38,131 nt of DNA from Burkholderiales bacterium (GTDB lineage Bacteria > Pseudomonadota > Gammaproteobacteria > Burkholderiales > Thiobacteraceae). Location of the stretch: positions 1 through 38,131 of the forward strand of contig JADMJT010000112.1 of assembly GCA_018781585.1 (NCBI GenBank), in the 5' to 3' direction. Of the stretch, positions 5,189 through 23,299 are shown piece by piece. A program made the translations under genes and the position numbers. Positions within the stretch are counted from its first letter, which is position 1; every line of letters begins with the position of its first letter. The notes beneath the pieces are model-generated. The model worked only from the letters and a program-made list of their open reading frames with translations, had not been told where the DNA came from and searched no databases.

Positions 5189-5643
5189 GGCGATTTTTCT
5201 CCGTCGGCGCTGGAACGAAACGATTTATTCAGCACACGCCAGTAAAGTTCGACCTGCGCGGCCACTTCGATGAACTTATCGAAATCCACCGGTTTGACGA
5301 TGTAGGAATTCGCGCCAAGCAGATACGCTTTTTGCATATCGACGTCTTCACTGGATGTGGTGAGCACCACCACCGGGATGGCGCGCAAGGTGGGATGCGC
5401 CTTGAGTTGCCGCAGCACCTCCAGTCCATCCACCTTCGGCAGCTTCAAATCCAGCAGGATCAGTGCGGGCCAAGGTTCGCCCGATTCCCAATGGGGAATC
5501 CAACTCAAGGCTTCGGCGCCGTCGCGGGCCACATGCAGTGGATTGGTCAGCTTGCGCTTAGCAAAAGCGCGCAAGGTCAGATCCAAATCCACCGGATTGT
5601 CTTCCACCAACAAAATCGGCTGAGACGACAAATCAGGCTTCAT
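5185..5643 (-). CDS. Single-domain response regulator, Rcp1 type
   Basis: This is a 152-residue receiver with no output domain, starting at the ATG at 5643 (MKPDLSSQPILLVEDNPVDL). Acidic pocket E14/D15, acceptor D65 in LILLDLKLPKVDG, T95 and K117 (SYIVKPVD) are all present. The EDNPVD wording and the LPKVDGLEVL loop are typical of Rcp1-like regulators paired with phytochrome-style kinases. Its start codon overlaps the kinase stop (ATGA, 5640-5643), and its stop overlaps the start of the dual-receiver GGDEF-EAL gene. It probably shuttles phosphate between the kinase and that protein, or acts on another partner. The open frame runs further upstream to 5697, but that extension lies inside the kinase gene. 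Confidence 0.93.
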   Translation of the reverse strand: MKPDLSSQPILLVEDNPVDLDLTLRAFAKRKLTNPLHVARDGAEALSWIPHWESGEPWPALILLDLKLPKVDGLEVLRQLKAHPTLRAIPVVVLTTSSEDVDMQKAYLLGANSYIVKPVDFDKFIEVAAQVELYWRVLNKSFRSSADGEKSP

Positions 5644-8519
5644 ATCGGCAACTCCAGATAAAAGGTAGCGCCCTGCCCTGGCGTGCTTTCGGCCCAAACC
5701 CGGCCGCCCATGCGTTGCAGCGCACGACGCACGATCGCGAGCCCAATGCCGGTACCAGGAAAATCCTCGACGAGTTGCAAGCGCTGAAATATCTCGAAAA
5801 TGCGTTCGTGAAATTTCATATCGAAGCCGATGCCATTGTCACGCACCCAAAGAATACAGCTATGCGCTTCCCGGCGTATGCCTATTTCGATAGCAGGATG
5901 GAGCGCGTCGCGGGTGAACTTGAGCGCGTTGTCGAGCAGGTTGCGCAGCGCCATGGCCAAGCCATCCCGGTCGGCGGTGACCGCTTGGGGGGGAATGTCA
6001 ACCTTCATCGTCACGCCGCGCGCGGCGATTTCCTCAGCACGTTCGGCAATCGTCGTCTGCAGCAAACGCGGCAAATCTACCTGATCCGTTTGCAAGACGC
6101 GGCGCTCGATGCGGGAATAGGCCAGCAAATCCTCGATCAATCGCGCCATTTGCCGGGCGCCGTGGCGGATGTTGGCGAGGAAAGTGCGGCCTTCCTCGTC
6201 CAATTCGGCGGCGTGGGTTTCCAGCAGCAATTGGCTGTAGCCGTCGATGCCGCGCAACGGCGCTTTTAAATCGTGGGAAACGGAGTAGGCAAAGGTCTCC
6301 AACTCTTTGTTGACGGCCTGCAATTGCGCGGTGCGCTCAGTCACGCGCTGTTCCAGTACGACATTAAGTTGGCGCACCTCGTCCTCTGCCTGTTTGCGCG
6401 CGGAAATATCGTTGATGGAGGAAAAAATTGCCGATTCGCCTTCGAATTCGATGATGGCGGCGGAAAGCTGCGCCCAGAATGGCGCGCCATCCGCGGCACG
6501 CAAGTGCAATTCTTCATCGGTAACGGTGGTCTCACGCAACAGGCGCGCCAGAAAGCGATCCCGCTCCGTGGGATCCAGATAAAAATCGCTAGCGGGTTGG
6601 CCGATACCCTGTTCGCGCTTGATGCCGAATTGGGCTTCCGCGCGCCGGTTGCCATAGCGCAGGATACCGTCACGCAGGCGGGTAATCACCACCGGGAACG
6701 GCGCCGTTTCCAACAAAGTGCGGTAGCGCAACTCGCTCACCCGCAGCGCATCCTCCGCCAACTTGCGCTCGGTAATGTCGTGAAGCACGGCGATGCGCGC
6801 ATCCCGCCCTTCGAAGTTGATATCGTGAGAATAGGCGACGATATTGATCAGCGTGCCATCCTTGCGTAGGTGATGCCATTCGCCGACAAAAACGTGGCCA
6901 TGAAGCTGGGGGATCAAGGCGACGATCGCCGCTTTTTCCGGCTCAGGGTAGAGATCAGGCAGTAGCAGGGCCAGCGCCTCCTCGCGGCTGTAGCCGTACT
7001 GATTCATAAAAGCCTCGTTCACCGCCAGCAGCTTCAGGCTGGCGCGCTCGTACACCAGCATCGGCGCCGGGTTGCGCTCGAACAGCAGTCGGAAGCGCGC
7101 TTCGCTCTCGCGCAACGTTTGCTCTGACCGCTTGCTATGAATGGCGAGCGCCGCCAAGTTGGCGGCGATGCGCAACAATTTATCGTCGTTCGCACCGAGG
7201 TCGCGCGGCTCGGAAAAATACACTGCGAACGTGCCGAGCACGCGTGAATCGCTGGAAAGAATCGGTTCTGACCAGCAGGCGCGCAAATTGGCCTGAGCGG
7301 CAAGGTCTCGATAATTTTCCCACAAGGGATCGGTCGCAATGTCAGCTACCACGACGCGTTCGCCGCGAAACGCGGCGGTGCCGCATGACCCCACACCCTC
7401 GCCAATCTCGACACCATCGACCGCTTGATTAAAGAATTCTGGCAAGCCGGCCACCGCGCCCCGGCGTAAATGTTTGCCATCGGCATCGAGCAGCAACACG
7501 GAGCCAATCGCGCCCGGCAGCACACTACCGACGAGGTTCGTCAAACTCGCCAACACGGCGTCCAACGGCTCGTTCCTCACCAATGCTTCCAACACCAGGG
7601 CATTACCGCGCTGCATCATCTCCATTTGATGGCGCGCGCTGATGTCCTCAATCGTCGCGACGAACAACTCTACCGCTCCGCTCGTGCTGCGCACCGCCTT
7701 GACATCGATCGTGGCGTAAATAGTGGCCCCGTCTTTGCGCAGGAAGCGCTTGACCATCTGATAGCTGTCGCTTTCGCGTCTCAGCGCACGCTCGAAATGG
7801 GCAATATCAGCGGCGATATCGTCCGGGTGAGTTAATTCCGCCCAGGTCAGCTCCATCAATTCTTCACGCGTATAACCCAGCATTTCACACAAGCGATCGT
7901 TGACGTGCAACCAATGCTTGGTAACGGGCGAAGTAATGGCCATGCCGACGAAGGGCAAATCGAAAAACAATTTCAACAGCCGGTCGCTTTCAGTGGATTG
8001 CGCAATCAGTTTCTGGCGATGCACGCGCTGCTGCTGCCATCCCAAAAAGAGCGCCGCCCCAGCCACGGCGGCGACCATGGCTACTGCCACCGCACTCACC
8101 CAGAAGACCAGATACTTGAGCGGCACCCGCACCTCTGTATCGCCACGCCATTCGGCCATCCAGGCTGCGATCTGGTCGACATTTAATCCGGCATTGGCAG
8201 CCTGCCGTAGTTGCAAGTTGTAAAGGTGGACGATGCTGAAGCCGATCAGAAAGACGATGAGCAGGAGCACCAGTAACATTCCAACTAAGCCGCGGGCGGG
8301 TGGAAAGGAAGGCGCCGCCGCCTCCGTCCGGGCCCACGTTCGCAGTAATAGATGGAGCAACAAGGAGGTAACGGCGACAAAAACAAAACCTTTCAGTGTG
8401 CCGATCCAGCCGAGCAACAGCGGGTCTTGCACCGCGAGCGTGAGCAGCCGATCAGAGCCGAAGATCCAAAGCGCGGCGAAAGCCGCATAGGCCAGCACAA
8501 TTTTGAGGCGGTTTCGCAT
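5640..8519 (-). CDS. Membrane PAS/GAF hybrid-sensor histidine kinase
   Basis: This 959-residue sensor kinase has an N-terminal membrane region of about four helices (near 7-27, 37-60, 78-100 and 137-160), with a periplasmic loop of about 35 residues between the last two. A PAS domain (180-298), a GAF domain (305-462), and two more PAS domains (466-588 and 592-710) follow. Next come a coiled coil with the VTERTAQLQ motif, HisKA with phospho-histidine H749 (YSVSHDLKAPLRGIDGY), and HATPase (N-box NLLDNALKF, G1 DNGIGF, G2 GTGIGLAIV). The HisKA wording is the one found in phytochrome-like kinases, which fits the Rcp1-type receiver encoded next. No PHY domain or chromophore cysteine is evident. A GGGAGGGG Shine-Dalgarno lies upstream. 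The signal is unknown. Confidence 0.95.
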   Translation of the reverse strand: MRNRLKIVLAYAAFAALWIFGSDRLLTLAVQDPLLLGWIGTLKGFVFVAVTSLLLHLLLRTWARTEAAAPSFPPARGLVGMLLVLLLIVFLIGFSIVHLYNLQLRQAANAGLNVDQIAAWMAEWRGDTEVRVPLKYLVFWVSAVAVAMVAAVAGAALFLGWQQQRVHRQKLIAQSTESDRLLKLFFDLPFVGMAITSPVTKHWLHVNDRLCEMLGYTREELMELTWAELTHPDDIAADIAHFERALRRESDSYQMVKRFLRKDGATIYATIDVKAVRSTSGAVELFVATIEDISARHQMEMMQRGNALVLEALVRNEPLDAVLASLTNLVGSVLPGAIGSVLLLDADGKHLRRGAVAGLPEFFNQAVDGVEIGEGVGSCGTAAFRGERVVVADIATDPLWENYRDLAAQANLRACWSEPILSSDSRVLGTFAVYFSEPRDLGANDDKLLRIAANLAALAIHSKRSEQTLRESEARFRLLFERNPAPMLVYERASLKLLAVNEAFMNQYGYSREEALALLLPDLYPEPEKAAIVALIPQLHGHVFVGEWHHLRKDGTLINIVAYSHDINFEGRDARIAVLHDITERKLAEDALRVSELRYRTLLETAPFPVVITRLRDGILRYGNRRAEAQFGIKREQGIGQPASDFYLDPTERDRFLARLLRETTVTDEELHLRAADGAPFWAQLSAAIIEFEGESAIFSSINDISARKQAEDEVRQLNVVLEQRVTERTAQLQAVNKELETFAYSVSHDLKAPLRGIDGYSQLLLETHAAELDEEGRTFLANIRHGARQMARLIEDLLAYSRIERRVLQTDQVDLPRLLQTTIAERAEEIAARGVTMKVDIPPQAVTADRDGLAMALRNLLDNALKFTRDALHPAIEIGIRREAHSCILWVRDNGIGFDMKFHERIFEIFQRLQLVEDFPGTGIGLAIVRRALQRMGGRVWAESTPGQGATFYLELPI

Positions 8520-17491: not shown

Positions 17492-17513
17492 GTTACGCGA
17501 GAAAACAGACAAC

Positions 17514-17542
17514 AAAAAAGCCGGCATGAAGCCGGCTTTTTT
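17514..17542. terminator. Bidirectional intrinsic terminator
   Basis: AAAAAAGCCGGC (17514-17525) and GCCGGCTTTTTT (17531-17542) form a perfect 12-bp stem with a 5-base loop. The A/T runs serve as U tracts in both directions. It serves the convergent MBL-hydrolase gene (plus) and the alanine-rich lipoprotein gene (minus). Confidence 0.92.
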
Positions 17543-17560
17543 GTTTACTACAAGAATTGC

Positions 17561-17851
17561 TTACTTCTTCGTTGCGTCTTTGGCAGCGTCAGCAGCACCT
17601 TTGGCAGCGTCAGCAGCGCCTTTGGCAGCATCGGCAGCACCAGCAGCAGCGTCGGCAGCACCAGCAGCAGCGGCAGCAGCCGGCGCGGCAGGAGCAGCAG
17701 CGTCAGCAGCAGGCATAGCAGGAGCAGCAGGAGCCGGAGCGGCAGGAGCAGCAGCTTCAGCCTTAGGAGCTTCAGCAGGCGCTTCGGTTTTGCCGCATGC
17801 AGCCAGCGACAGAGCAGCGATCAACGCGGCGAACAGAGCAGAGTGTTTCAT
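17561..17851 (-). CDS. Alanine-rich small lipoprotein of low complexity
   Basis: This 96-residue protein starts with a lipoprotein signal peptide (MKHSALFAALIAALSLAAC, lipidated C19). An Ala/Pro/Glu region (about 20-60) follows, then a regular alanine-rich tail in which GAADAAK is repeated (residues about 68-93), ending in two lysines. The tail would form an amphipathic helix. The gene has an AGGGAA Shine-Dalgarno, an extended -10 promoter and a perfect terminator, so it looks like an independent, well-expressed unit. Small alanine-rich lipoproteins of unknown role are common in proteobacteria. I cannot assign a function. The opposite-strand frame here is only a shadow of the GCA/GCC repeats. 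Confidence 0.8.
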   Translation of the reverse strand: MKHSALFAALIAALSLAACGKTEAPAEAPKAEAAAPAAPAPAAPAMPAADAAAPAAPAAAAAAGAADAAAGAADAAKGAADAAKGAADAAKDATKK

Positions 17852-18097: not shown

Positions 18098-19363
18098 ATG
18101 CCACGTCTCATGATCGCGCTATGGATTGTGTTTTTGAGCTTGTCGGGGTTGATCCCGCAAGGCGCACTGGCAGCCGATCAACTGGTGCGCGTGGGTGTAC
18201 TCGCCCATCGCGGCAAGGACGAAGCTTTAATAGCTTGGTCGCCCACCGCACGCTATCTTTCCAAAGAAATCCCCGGTCATAACTTTGTCATTGTGCCGCT
18301 CAATAATGATGACATCGGCCCAGCGGTGGAGTATCGAGATGTCGAATTTGTGCTCACTAACCCAGGATCGTATGCTGAACTGGAATATAGCTTCGGCATC
18401 ACGCGCATCGCCACGTTGAAAAGCAAAACGCCTCAGGGTGGCTATAGCGTGCTGGGCGCGGTGATCTTCAGTCGCGCCGACCGCGCAGATATACAGACCT
18501 TGGCTGACCTGAAAGGCAAGCACTTCATGGCGGTGCATGAGAATGCCTTTGGCGGCTGGTGGCTCGCCTGGCGCGAGCTCAAGCGAACCAATATCGATCC
18601 CTACAAAGACTTCAAGCGCTTGCAATTTGCCGGCTTTCCACAGGACGACATTGTTTTCGCTGTGCGCGATGGCAAAGCCGATGCCGGCACCGTGCGCACC
18701 GATTTGCTCGAAAGCATGGCGCTCGCCGGAAATATCAATCTCCAGGATTTCAAAATCCTGAATTCACAGCATGCAGAGGGCTTCCCTTATGCGCTCAGCA
18801 CGCCACTTTATCCTGATTGGGCCTTCGCCGTACTACGCCACACCTCGGAAAAACTAGCGCAACGCGTCACCATCGCGTTATTGAAAATGTCGCCCGGCGA
18901 CCCGGCTGCCAGCGCCGGTGGTTATGCAGAATGGACCGTTCCGCTTGACTATCACAGCGTGCAGCAATTGATGTTGGATTTGCGGGTCGGTCCTTACCGC
19001 AATTATGGCAAACTCACCTATTTGGACTTGCTCAAGCAATATTGGAGGTGGATTAGCGCCGCGCTCGCCATCATCCTTGCCTTGGCCGCGGCCTATGTCT
19101 ACGTGCTCCGTCTGAACCGTAAACTCTCCAGCACCATGAAGCATTTGGAACAAGAAATCGCTCAACGCCAGCGCATCGAACAAGACTTGCTTAAAACGCG
19201 CGATGCGCTAGAGCACCGCGTGGCGGAACGCACCACCGAGCTCGCGCGTATCAACGAAGAACTGGAATCTCGCGTGGCGCGTCGCACCGCCCAACTGCTC
19301 TCCGCCATGCAACGGCTGGAAACGGAAATGAAGGGCCAGCGCTCGTCGAGCGAAGCCGAATAA
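18098..19363 (+). CDS. PhnD-like periplasmic sensor with transmembrane helix and coiled coil, no kinase domain
   Basis: This 421-residue protein has a signal peptide (1-25, ending GALA) and a periplasmic PhnD/TtrS-type binding domain (27-310; VRVGVLAHRGKDEA, VEFVLTNPGSYAELE, DLKGKHFMAVHENAFGG, DGKADAGTVRTDLLE). One transmembrane helix (about 318-338) and a cytoplasmic coiled coil (340-410) with two ERTTEL/RRTAQL repeats follow. This is the input half of TtrS-like histidine kinases. The coiled coil is where HisKA would normally begin, yet the frame stops at 19363 and the next gene starts ten bases later, so no kinase remnant is present. It may be a receptor acting through a partner, or a truncated kinase that has been kept. 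A weak extended -10 (TGCTAGACT, 18055-18063) lies upstream. The ligand is unknown. Confidence 0.85.
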   Translation: MPRLMIALWIVFLSLSGLIPQGALAADQLVRVGVLAHRGKDEALIAWSPTARYLSKEIPGHNFVIVPLNNDDIGPAVEYRDVEFVLTNPGSYAELEYSFGITRIATLKSKTPQGGYSVLGAVIFSRADRADIQTLADLKGKHFMAVHENAFGGWWLAWRELKRTNIDPYKDFKRLQFAGFPQDDIVFAVRDGKADAGTVRTDLLESMALAGNINLQDFKILNSQHAEGFPYALSTPLYPDWAFAVLRHTSEKLAQRVTIALLKMSPGDPAASAGGYAEWTVPLDYHSVQQLMLDLRVGPYRNYGKLTYLDLLKQYWRWISAALAIILALAAAYVYVLRLNRKLSSTMKHLEQEIAQRQRIEQDLLKTRDALEHRVAERTTELARINEELESRVARRTAQLLSAMQRLETEMKGQRSSSEAE

Positions 19364-19373
19364 GCGGCTCGCC

Positions 19374-20942
19374 ATGCCGGATCCAAACATCGCTTTTTCT
19401 ACCCTTCTCGAACATCTCAAGCAGCCCGGACTTTACCCACATCCGGTCGATCAAGTCGCGCTGTTGGAAACCCACATCTCGGTCGTGCTCCTCGCCGGCG
19501 AATACGCATACAAACTGAAGAAACCCTACAACCTCGGTTTTCTCGATTTCACCACCCTGGAAGCGCGCAAATATTATTGTGAGGAAGAGCAACGTTTAAA
19601 CCAACGCTTCGCACCCAATCTATATCTCGGCGTGATCCCAATCACGGGATCGGTCGATGAACCGCACTGGGGCGGCAGCGGTTTACCAATCGAATACGCC
19701 GTCAAAATGCGCCGCTTCCCGCAGCAGGCACTGTTGTCCAACGTGCTGGCGCGCAATGAATTGCAAGCTACCCAACTCGATGCCCTGGCTTGCCGCATAG
19801 CGGCATTCCATCAAGCTGTTCCAGCCGCCACGATGGATCAAGGCGAGGGTCTGCCTGACACGGTACATGCTAGCGCGCGTCAGAATTTCGCGCAGATTGA
19901 ACCGCTGCTTGAGCACGCTGCACAGCGCGTACAATTGGCCCGCCTAGCGCAGACAACCGAAGCGCTATACACCACTGATACGGCGTTATTTCTGCAACGC
20001 AAGCGCGATGGCTTTGTGCGCGAATGCCATGGCGACTTACACCTCGGCAATATGATCATGCTCGAAGGCGAGATCGTGCCTTTCGATTGCATCGAGTTCA
20101 ACGCGGATTTTCGCTGGATCGATGTCATGAGCGAAATCGCTTTCTTGATCATGGATCTCGCCAGCCGCGGGCGGCCCGATCTGGGGTTCCGCTTCCTAAA
20201 CACGTATCTGGAGCAAACCGGGGATTTTGCCGGGCTCAAGGTATTGCGCTATTACCTGATGTTCCGCGCGATGGTGCGCGCCAAGATCGCCGCGATACGC
20301 GCCACGCAACAAGAAACGCAAACCACGACATGCACGCAAGCCTGGATGGAGTATCAGCACTACCTGGATTTGGCGGCGCGGGTGAGCAAACAGCAGCCAC
20401 CGCTACTCCTCTTAATGCGCGGCTTCTCAGGTTCGGGAAAAAGTACCGTAGCACGCGAGTTGGCGATGCATCTCCCGGCCATTCACGTGCGCTCGGATGT
20501 CGAGCGCAAACGCCTGTTCGGCTTCACCCCGCTGGCGCAATCGGACTCGGCGCTTGGAAGAGGGCTCTACACAGCAGACGCCACGCAGGCTACCTATGCT
20601 CGCCTAAAGGAAATCGCCCAGACGGTGTTGGATGCAGGTTTTCAGGTGGTGCTCGATGCAACGTTTTTACAGCACAGGCAACGCACGATGTTCGAAGAGA
20701 TGGGCAAACCCTTCCTCATCCTCGCTTGCGAAGCGCCGATAGAAGTACTGCGCACGCGGGTTGCGCTACGCCATGCCGCGAAAACCGATGCGGCGGAAGC
20801 CGATCTCGCCGTGCTGGAAAAACAATTGGCCTCGCACGAAGCACTCAGTGAAACCGAGCGTGTACATGCCATCATGCTCAACACCCTGCAACCGATCGCG
20901 GGTTTAACCTTGGCTGAGCAGATTCGTGCCCAGTTTAATTAA
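19374..20942 (+). CDS. Fusion of aminoglycoside-phosphotransferase-like and P-loop kinase domains
   Basis: This is a 522-residue cytoplasmic protein. Residues about 20-320 form an APH-like kinase domain (COG2187 type): the catalytic loop is HGDLHLGN (219-226) and the metal-binding aspartate is in VPFDCIEFN. Residues 343-522 are an AAA/zeta-toxin-like P-loop kinase domain (COG0645 type) with Walker A GFSGSGKST (350-358), HVRSDVERKRLFG and LDATFLQHRQR. Such fusions are widespread and usually annotated as bifunctional aminoglycoside phosphotransferase/ATP-binding protein. True antibiotic resistance is not implied and the substrates are unknown. The gene starts 10 bp after the kinase-less sensor on the same strand, with no clear Shine-Dalgarno, suggesting coupled translation. 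Its last 8 bases overlap the end of the convergent VWA gene. Confidence 0.9.
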   Translation: MPDPNIAFSTLLEHLKQPGLYPHPVDQVALLETHISVVLLAGEYAYKLKKPYNLGFLDFTTLEARKYYCEEEQRLNQRFAPNLYLGVIPITGSVDEPHWGGSGLPIEYAVKMRRFPQQALLSNVLARNELQATQLDALACRIAAFHQAVPAATMDQGEGLPDTVHASARQNFAQIEPLLEHAAQRVQLARLAQTTEALYTTDTALFLQRKRDGFVRECHGDLHLGNMIMLEGEIVPFDCIEFNADFRWIDVMSEIAFLIMDLASRGRPDLGFRFLNTYLEQTGDFAGLKVLRYYLMFRAMVRAKIAAIRATQQETQTTTCTQAWMEYQHYLDLAARVSKQQPPLLLLMRGFSGSGKSTVARELAMHLPAIHVRSDVERKRLFGFTPLAQSDSALGRGLYTADATQATYARLKEIAQTVLDAGFQVVLDATFLQHRQRTMFEEMGKPFLILACEAPIEVLRTRVALRHAAKTDAAEADLAVLEKQLASHEALSETERVHAIMLNTLQPIAGLTLAEQIRAQFN

Positions 20943-22251
20943 GTTGAATGCGCTGGCCCCAAGGGGTGGGCGCCTTGCCTTTGACGAGCCAAATCACGGG
21001 ACAGTGCGGTTCGTGTGAGGGGAAGTCGCCTTCCGCATCGGTAAAGTACACCACCAAATCGGGGTGCAGTTGGGCCTGTTCGAGCCACTCGAACGGCGGC
21101 TTGAAGCTGGTGCCGCCCCCGCCGGTGAGGTTTTTCGGCAAGGTCAGCGCCTCCCAAGCCTCGAATAACCAGGGACCGTTCGCGCACAGATGATCGTCGC
21201 AAGCATGCAAGGTAATGCGCGCGCGTAGCTGGCCTTTTAATACATCGACCTCGGACAAAAACTCGCCTAACTCCTCGTCACCGATTGAGCCGCTGGTGTC
21301 GATCACGACAAGCACGTCGATCATATTTGAGGACAGGCTGGGTAAGATGGCTTCCCCTTCGCGCCGCGACGGACGCTGAAAGCTGTAATCATCACGCGAT
21401 GCGACTTTCATGTAGCGCGCCAGCAACATGCGCCAGGGTAATTGCGGCTGCAGCAGGTGGTCCACCATGCGCGCCAGCGTTTGCGAAAGCTTGCCGGCTT
21501 GCGCCGCTTGTTGTGCGGCGGCGGCGAGGCGTTGTTGCCACTGCCGCCCCAGTTCTTCCTTCTCGATTTCGCTCAAGCCCTCGATTTGCGGCTGGTTGCC
21601 GGCACCTTGCTCCTGTTTGGCGGCTTGACCCGGCGACTCGCCTTGGCGCTGTTCTGGCGGCGGCTCCTGCCCTTCGCCTTGCCCCTGGCCTTCTCCGGCC
21701 GATTGTTCCGATTCCTGATTTTGCGGCGATTGCTGTTGATTCGGCTGGCTTTGCGTGCCGCTGCTCGAATCGTTGTCATACAGATGGCTATCGATGGTCT
21801 GCTCGGCGGTATCCGGTGGGATCAACGGATAAATTTCTTCCGCCGTCAGGCCGTGGTACTCCGGGTTCATCAGACAACCGGCGGGCGGCTTAAGCCCCTC
21901 ATCCCACAGCAGCAGGTTCACTGCATGGTCGCATGCGATATCCCAGCGCTTGAGTTCACGATGTTGACGCCGCGCGAAATGCGCCAGCGCGCAATGCATC
22001 GCATCGTGCGACAACATAAACTGCGTTTGCGCCAGGTTGAGATGTTGGATGAATTTCGGATTGTAGTAGAAGTAACGCGCGTCGGTACCGGTGGTGCGCA
22101 AGCGGTCATCCTGCACCGCCTTGAGCTCAAGATGCATGACCAGCGTACCCAGAAACGGTTTTTCCAGAATCAAGCGCGTGCGCGCAGCGGCAAGCTTGGT
22201 CTCGATTTGAGTCAAATCGGGTTCCATCTGAAGGGAAGGTGTTGCCGCCAT
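20935..22251 (-). CDS. VWA-domain protein with DUF2201-like N-terminal domain
   Basis: This 438-residue protein is the partner of the MoxR ATPase encoded just upstream. Residues about 15-145 resemble the putative metallopeptidase domain (DUF2201 N-terminal type). The helix usually carrying HExxH reads SHDAMHCALAH (H82, D83, H86, H91), so Glu is replaced by Asp. A Gln/Glu/Gly-rich low-complexity linker occupies 160-225. The C-terminal VWA-like domain (about 305-438) keeps the MIDAS metal residues DTSGS (318-322), a threonine in GGGGTSF and D405 in YFTDAEGD. MoxR/VWA pairs act as chaperone-like or metal-insertion machines in studied cases; the client here is unknown. There is a one-base gap to the MoxR stop, indicating coupling. 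Confidence 0.88.
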   Translation of the reverse strand: MAATPSLQMEPDLTQIETKLAAARTRLILEKPFLGTLVMHLELKAVQDDRLRTTGTDARYFYYNPKFIQHLNLAQTQFMLSHDAMHCALAHFARRQHRELKRWDIACDHAVNLLLWDEGLKPPAGCLMNPEYHGLTAEEIYPLIPPDTAEQTIDSHLYDNDSSSGTQSQPNQQQSPQNQESEQSAGEGQGQGEGQEPPPEQRQGESPGQAAKQEQGAGNQPQIEGLSEIEKEELGRQWQQRLAAAAQQAAQAGKLSQTLARMVDHLLQPQLPWRMLLARYMKVASRDDYSFQRPSRREGEAILPSLSSNMIDVLVVIDTSGSIGDEELGEFLSEVDVLKGQLRARITLHACDDHLCANGPWLFEAWEALTLPKNLTGGGGTSFKPPFEWLEQAQLHPDLVVYFTDAEGDFPSHEPHCPVIWLVKGKAPTPWGQRIQLN

Positions 22252-22252
22252 A

Positions 22253-23299
22253 TCACAATTCGTAAAGCATCAAATCGGTGACGGAGTTAGCCCATTCGGC
22301 GAACTCCGGCACGGCAAACAGTGGTTTACCGACCGAGCGATGCAAGTCCGTCACCAACATCACGCCCATCTCACGCTGCGGAAAACGCCGTGCGTATTGC
22401 AGGATATTGCCCAAGACCCGGTTTCCCTCCGGCGAGTCTTTTGCCAGTACCGCGCGGCGCACCAAGGCCGCTGCCACCCCATACTGCAAATCGATGCCAG
22501 GTGGCACATGCGACTCCTTACCCTGCACGATGCCGTCGATATCGGGTAGTTGATCCATGCTATCAACGAAGGCCTTGACCTCGATGCCGGCAGCGGGGCC
22601 GACGCAGGCTTGCAGCGCATCACGCAGCAATACCGGCATTTCAATAAACTTTTTCAGCGCACGGTGCGCGAATTCCCACGAGCGGGGTGAAGGGAACGCA
22701 ATCGGGTTATGTGCCGGATCGAAATTGAAGAGCAAGTCCGGGCGAAAACGCAGAAAACCGATAATACGTTCGTCGATACCACGGCCATGCGCCCAAGCCA
22801 CCCAATCATCCAACTGCGCTTCCACTTCATAGTGCGTGAAGCGGTTAGCCAGTGGCGCAGGCATGCTATAGGTCACGCCGCGATCGCCTTGGCGATTCCC
22901 GGCTGCGAATATCGCCCAACCATCCGGGATGAAATACTCACCCAATCGCCGATCCAATATCAATTGATATGCGGCAGTCGAGACCGTGGGCGCGGCGGAG
23001 GTGATCTCGTCCAAAAATAATATACCGGTCGGGCCATGGCGCTGTGCATCGGGCAACATGGAGGGAATCGCCCATTCCACCCGATCATTCAAGCGGAAGG
23101 GGATGCCGCGCAGATCGGTCGGCTCCATTTGCGACAAGCGAATATCGATCAGCGGCACGCGGTGCAGGTCGGCAATTTGCGCGATGATCTGCGATTTCCC
23201 GACGCCAGGTGGCCCCCACAGCATCACGGGGGTGTGTTGGCCAGTTAAAGTGCTATTGAATTCGCGTTCGAGAATCGCGGCGATATGAGTCGGTCGCAT
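22253..23299 (-). CDS. MoxR-type AAA+ ATPase
   Basis: This 348-residue ATPase is of the MoxR/AAA_5 class. Walker A is GPPGVGKS (29-36), Walker B is GILFLDEITSA (D97, E98), and the sensor-1 region contains WAIFAAGNRQGD. The segment HYEVEAQLDDWVAWAHGRGID belongs to the lid. It is the first gene of a two-gene unit with the VWA protein and probably remodels a client bound by it. It starts divergently from the Nudix gene across 167 bp in which I see no convincing promoter. The Shine-Dalgarno is weak. Confidence 0.92.
   Translation of the reverse strand: MRPTHIAAILEREFNSTLTGQHTPVMLWGPPGVGKSQIIAQIADLHRVPLIDIRLSQMEPTDLRGIPFRLNDRVEWAIPSMLPDAQRHGPTGILFLDEITSAAPTVSTAAYQLILDRRLGEYFIPDGWAIFAAGNRQGDRGVTYSMPAPLANRFTHYEVEAQLDDWVAWAHGRGIDERIIGFLRFRPDLLFNFDPAHNPIAFPSPRSWEFAHRALKKFIEMPVLLRDALQACVGPAAGIEVKAFVDSMDQLPDIDGIVQGKESHVPPGIDLQYGVAAALVRRAVLAKDSPEGNRVLGNILQYARRFPQREMGVMLVTDLHRSVGKPLFAVPEFAEWANSVTDLMLYEL

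Follow-up and report, generated by a model that had tools for sequence, protein, structure and literature searches.

How does a membrane receptor signal if it carries no output domain of its own, and does the kinase gene directly behind it have a part in that? The window, the 38,131-nucleotide stretch of DNA analysed here, holds a gene for a PhnD/TtrS-like receptor that ends shortly after a cytoplasmic coiled coil. The reading frame of an APH-like/P-loop kinase fusion begins 10 bases past its end, as the initial annotation had stated, and the two had been proposed to form a new kind of receptor-kinase pair. We asked whether the receptor is complete as it stands, whether the pair holds together among relatives, and what the coil might do.

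Architecture of the receptor

Profile searches matched residues 33-268 to the phosphonate-binding family PF12974 (E 2.5e-33). The NCBIfam TtrS profile covered residues 31-359 only and scored 201.8 against a cut-off of 750, and domain profile searches found neither HisKA nor HATPase in the protein. An AlphaFold model (mean pLDDT 88) has a confident two-lobed binding domain, a single helix spanning residues 308-416, and then disorder. The binding domain, membrane helix and cytoplasmic coil first read from the sequence are borne out by the profiles and the model, and the signal peptide can be read directly from the sequence (Table 1). In a structure comparison, the nearest solved folds to the binding domain included HtxB, PtxB, ArrX, PhnD and AioX; the TM-score of ArrX against the receptor model, normalised to the target, reached 0.83. 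All five are binders of small oxyanions or phosphonates. A promoter scan, whose counts were near chance, gave no promoter-like site upstream of the receptor gene, and the window contains no Rfam family.

Table 1. Positions of the receptor, the neighbouring fusion and their parts in the window
Feature	Position	Strand	Basis
Output-less PhnD/TtrS-like receptor, 421 aa	18098..19363	+	ORF, domain profiles, AlphaFold, nine orthologues with the same end
Signal peptide, residues 1-26 (...GALA|AD)	18098..18175	+	direct sequence reading
Periplasmic binding domain, residues 28-300 (PF12974; PtxB/HtxB/ArrX fold)	18179..18997	+	profile, AlphaFold, fold comparison
Transmembrane helix, residues ~318-336	19049..19105	+	WISAALAIILALAAAYVYV within predicted helix 308-416
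First S-helix signature RVAERT, residues 374-379	19217..19234	+	motif scan; ERT signature per PMC1592074
Strongly constrained terminal helix, residues 379-412	19232..19333	+	dN/dS 0-0.07, same-genus species
Second S-helix-like signature RVARRT, residues 392-397	19271..19288	+	R and T invariant in 9/9 orthologues
Variable, disordered tail, residues 413-421	19334..19360	+	orthologue alignment, dN/dS, AlphaFold
Two-domain APH-like + P-loop small-molecule kinase; neighbour, probably no functional part	19374..20942	+	profiles, alignment, structure
APH-type catalytic loop HGDLHLGN, fusion residues 219-226	20028..20051	+	H219, G220, D221, H223 and N226 invariant in 30 sequences
Walker A GFSGSGKS, fusion residues 350-357	20421..20444	+	G350, G353, G355 and K356 invariant in 30 sequences

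The two ERTxEL-type repeats that the initial annotation had noticed in the coil are S-helix signatures. Their R-T units stand 18 residues apart in all nine members of the receptor group. The first unit reads RVA[ED]RT in eight orthologues and KVAERT in one; in the second, E is replaced by R or H, and R and T are retained throughout (9/9). Every member has two such units, whereas almost all output-bearing relatives have at most one in the matching stretch; this comparison is a simple motif count, and the few extra matches in the output-bearing relatives fall inside other domains.

With an ERT signature whose R and T are conserved, set in a long coil, the receptor resembles the published S-helix (PMC1592074). 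That element, however, almost always sits between two signalling domains (PMC1592074), whereas here two tandem units stand at the very end of the protein: only the remaining helix and a short variable tail follow the second one, and there is no second domain for the coil to connect. We conclude that an S-helix with nothing behind it is a real oddity of this locus.

The adjacent kinase fusion

Perhaps the next gene supplies the missing output? Its domain content is as first described. The protein matches APH (5.6e-6) and AAA_33 (1.2e-32), its predicted structure combines an APH/choline-kinase-like domain with a gluconate-kinase-like P-loop domain, and an HGDxHxxN loop and a Walker A motif are present in the one polypeptide. 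The lack of an evident ribosome site at its start was also correctly noted, but it tells little, because 8 of the 15 window genes tested, the receptor gene included, have no Shine-Dalgarno match either (a simple motif count, in which dapA was scored at a mis-set start). A translational frameshift joining the two reading frames is unlikely, since their frame relation differs between species (10 versus 12 bases).

We then compared the neighbourhood in the nine genomes with the receptor. The two genes abut in the same direction, 10-12 bases apart, in four of them (the window genome, G004, G005 and G007). The sister genus again has both within about 2 kb and in the same direction, but typA, on the opposite strand, separates them. 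G001 and G006 have the two genes on different contigs. No fusion was found in G003; there a convergent DUF2201 gene directly faces the receptor gene, 28 bases away. Most genomes of the family are drafts in many contigs, and "absent" and "different contig" carry that uncertainty. typA is single-copy and lies on another contig in the window-genus genomes where it was found, and therefore a rearrangement on either side explains the contact between receptor and fusion. In the loci that we read, no gene is conserved beside the receptor across both genera, and no partner sensor kinase or regulator gene adjoins it.

The fusion is also at home elsewhere. It was found in 39 of 100 relatives, and 31 of these 39 carriers belong to other families, where we found no intact output-less receptor. 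Among the best matches are copies on plasmids of Variovorax, Cupriavidus and others (43-45% identity). The window's copy is an ordinary member of the stand-alone APH-like + AAA_33 fusions, 43-65% identical to those elsewhere, and is distinct only by its position beside the receptor in four species. A literature search found no paper describing this two-domain family. One copy (G029:C1:254633-255973) has an internal TAA.

The APH fold belongs to the eukaryote-type S/T kinase superfamily. The paper on the S-helix reports that it never occurs upstream of eukaryote-type S/T kinases (PMC1592074). Despite the shared direction and close spacing in both genera, then, it is very unlikely that receptor and fusion are one system in which the coil controls a small-molecule kinase. 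The proposed coupling does not survive the comparison: the two genes touch in only four of nine genomes, most genomes that carry the fusion do not belong to the family, and the output-less homologues share no conserved neighbourhood with it. Most likely, the fusion is functionally unrelated, and its place directly behind the receptor arose in one subclade. An apparent new-system gene pair in one genome can dissolve once the synteny of its relatives is read.

Other features of the surroundings were noted. A DUF2201 metallopeptidase/VWA gene and a MoxR-like AAA ATPase gene (window 20935-23299, minus strand) flank the fusion in both genera, and this pair is a steadier neighbour of the fusion than the receptor is. 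A small lipoprotein-like reading frame (...LAACGK...; 17561-17851, minus strand) consists almost entirely of Ala/Pro/Asp/Lys repeats, and a terminator-like hairpin of 15 pairs lies behind it (17511-17545).

Age of the missing output domain and selection on the stub

Is the lack of an output domain a recent accident of this genome? Among the genomes searched, ten belong to the window's family; orthologues of the receptor are present in nine of them, the remaining genome being 66% complete. The nine proteins stop after the same helix, their ends differing by a few residues. In a binding-domain tree they form one clade (support 100/100) nested among output-bearing receptors. The relatives outside the family carry histidine kinase (HisKA), GAF-GGDEF, GAF-HD-GYP, SpoIIE or LuxR outputs. 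Closest in the tree, at about 40-48% identity, are PhnD-like receptors with GAF-HD-GYP (L073, L074, L076), GAF-GGDEF (L101) and SpoIIE (L103, L104); all of these bear an output domain, and ours bears none.

TtrS-type kinases with a PhnD-like sensor include tetrathionate and thiosulfate sensors (PMC5408782). Our receptor shares their PF12974 domain, signal peptide and membrane helix, but it has no HisKA or HATPase_c, and none of the nine orthologues extends into such a domain. Nor does the tree group it with histidine kinases in particular: HisKA-bearing receptors are not specially close to the nine-member clade. Because the relatives outside the family carry several different outputs, the missing part is not specifically a kinase, and the description of the protein as stopping exactly where HisKA should begin goes further than the data. 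The description as kinase-less, on the other hand, is correct: since all nine family orthologues are output-less, no close relative has a full histidine kinase here.

Two of these architectures with a PhnD-like domain were noted in passing. L103 (120-2042) and L104 (1411-3375) have a SpoIIE-type phosphatase output, and L117 (1333-2832) joins the domain to a membrane helix and a LuxR-type HTH, as a membrane-bound one-step regulator.

The 10 bases after the receptor hold no output-domain remnant, as first reported, and none was seen in relatives where other genes come next. Searches of three overlapping sets, namely 100 relatives, 399 genomes from the order and 398 from the phylum, yielded no other intact output-less member. 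Short frames in G415 and G422 looked like a second output-less group, a candidate that we rejected: the first is a full-length kinase with a frameshift, and the second probably is too. These loci (L146 on G415:C2 and L116 on G422:C5) appear to be broken PhnD-PAS-kinase receptors, through real decay or an error in sequencing. For the HD-GYP architecture, which the search covered, gene fission with the output encoded elsewhere was likewise rejected: G000 and G006 gave no more than HD domains that lack GAF and show 28-42% identity over the HD part, and G008 and G009 gave no match.

We next measured selection on the cytoplasmic stub. In same-genus pairs, dN/dS was 0-0.07 for residues 379-412 versus 0.05-0.10 for the binding domain, and this segment lay below the binding domain in the pairs where a value could be computed; estimates on 34 codons are rough, and dS approaches saturation in several cases. 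Between genera (window versus L038) the order is reversed, at 0.14 for the segment versus 0.07 for the binding domain, and within the sister genus the values are 0.16 versus 0.12. The nine-residue tail varies freely between more distant species. Over the comparisons, dN/dS was 0.05-0.12 for the binding domain and about 0.07-0.16 for the whole receptor. Hence, within the genus, the last 34 residues of the helix are among the most constrained parts of the receptor, and the cytoplasmic stub is under selection.

The shared end, the dN/dS values and the binding-domain tree together reject a recent truncation. Outside the family, every one of the closest relatives is longer, as would be expected if the receptor were the decaying remnant of a full sensor; that reading is nevertheless extremely improbable, being contradicted by the selection data and by an end held in common by nine species, and the broken copies look different, with a frameshift in G415 and probably in G422. 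We conclude that the receptor genuinely lacks an output domain and that this state is old.

How the coil may be read

What, then, is the stub kept for? Because it is among the best-preserved parts of the receptor, the protein probably signals through a separate partner. The explanation that we favour, and to which we give roughly even chances, takes the protein for an orphan receptor spanning the membrane, which another protein, encoded separately, reads in trans. The ancestor shared by one betaproteobacterial family would have lost the output domain, or never had it, and selection would have kept the receptor since. A small oxyanion, the probable ligand, would close the binding domain. The change would pass via the membrane helix to a parallel dimeric coiled coil and alter the pitch or register of that coil, and a docking protein encoded separately would read the exposed coil. 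Parts of such a mechanism have precedents: AioX and ArrX, two binding proteins with this fold, each serve as first component in a separate signalling system (PMC5908839), and in the general stress response a partner protein, RsbT, activates the phosphatase RsbU (PMC12143880). A more specific version, a "split receptor" in which the output domain was lost, the S-helix doubled and a dedicated docking protein came to read the tandem end in trans, is put forward tentatively, and we would lean against it.

Several points count against reading in trans. Coiled coils can be conserved for dimerisation alone, and residues 379-412 are less constrained than the binding domain between genera. Searches of neighbouring genes and for similar coils gave no candidate docking partner; the 12 other matches in the coil search were mostly weak, and the two that we read were ordinary, generic sensor kinases.

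Could the receptor instead be read from the periplasmic side? Like AioX with AioS, it might use its periplasmic or membrane part to pass the signal laterally to a full-length histidine kinase that is a separate protein. Its structural neighbours include ArrX and AioX (PMC5908839), with which it shares the binding-protein fold, and the genome holds sensor kinases with a similar coil. However, aioX is co-transcribed with its kinase gene (PMC6011840), whereas no kinase gene lies alongside ours. AioX and ArrX also differ from our receptor, which spans the membrane and has a cytoplasmic coil, and a purely periplasmic contact would leave the constraint on the cytoplasmic end unexplained. We regard this explanation as rather unlikely.

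Mixed dimers with other coil-bearing sensors, which the receptor would dampen or tune, are a further way in which the coil might act. Other proteins of the genome share the coil motif, among them L003/L089 (E 9e-9) and a histidine kinase of the window (5640-8519; E 9e-7). The shared motif is, however, the common S-helix pattern, the two proteins read lack the receptor's binding domain, and nothing links the loci, which makes mixed dimers a distinctly poor prospect.

The receptor might also be a membrane-anchored binding protein and nothing more, serving scavenging or transport, with a helix that merely dimerises. Its binding domain is well conserved across the comparisons given above, and its gene is isolated, without signalling neighbours. 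Such a protein would have no obvious need for so constrained a cytoplasmic helix, about 80 residues long. No PhnE permease scored above the TIGR01097 cut-off in the nine genomes, and a phosphonate importer or a plain transport role is therefore disfavoured; we hold a simple anchored binder to be unlikely.

S-helices are thought to relay signals between two domains of one protein. A receptor that, throughout a family, ends in two S-helices maintained by selection offers a natural way to ask whether a second protein can receive the signal from such a coil.
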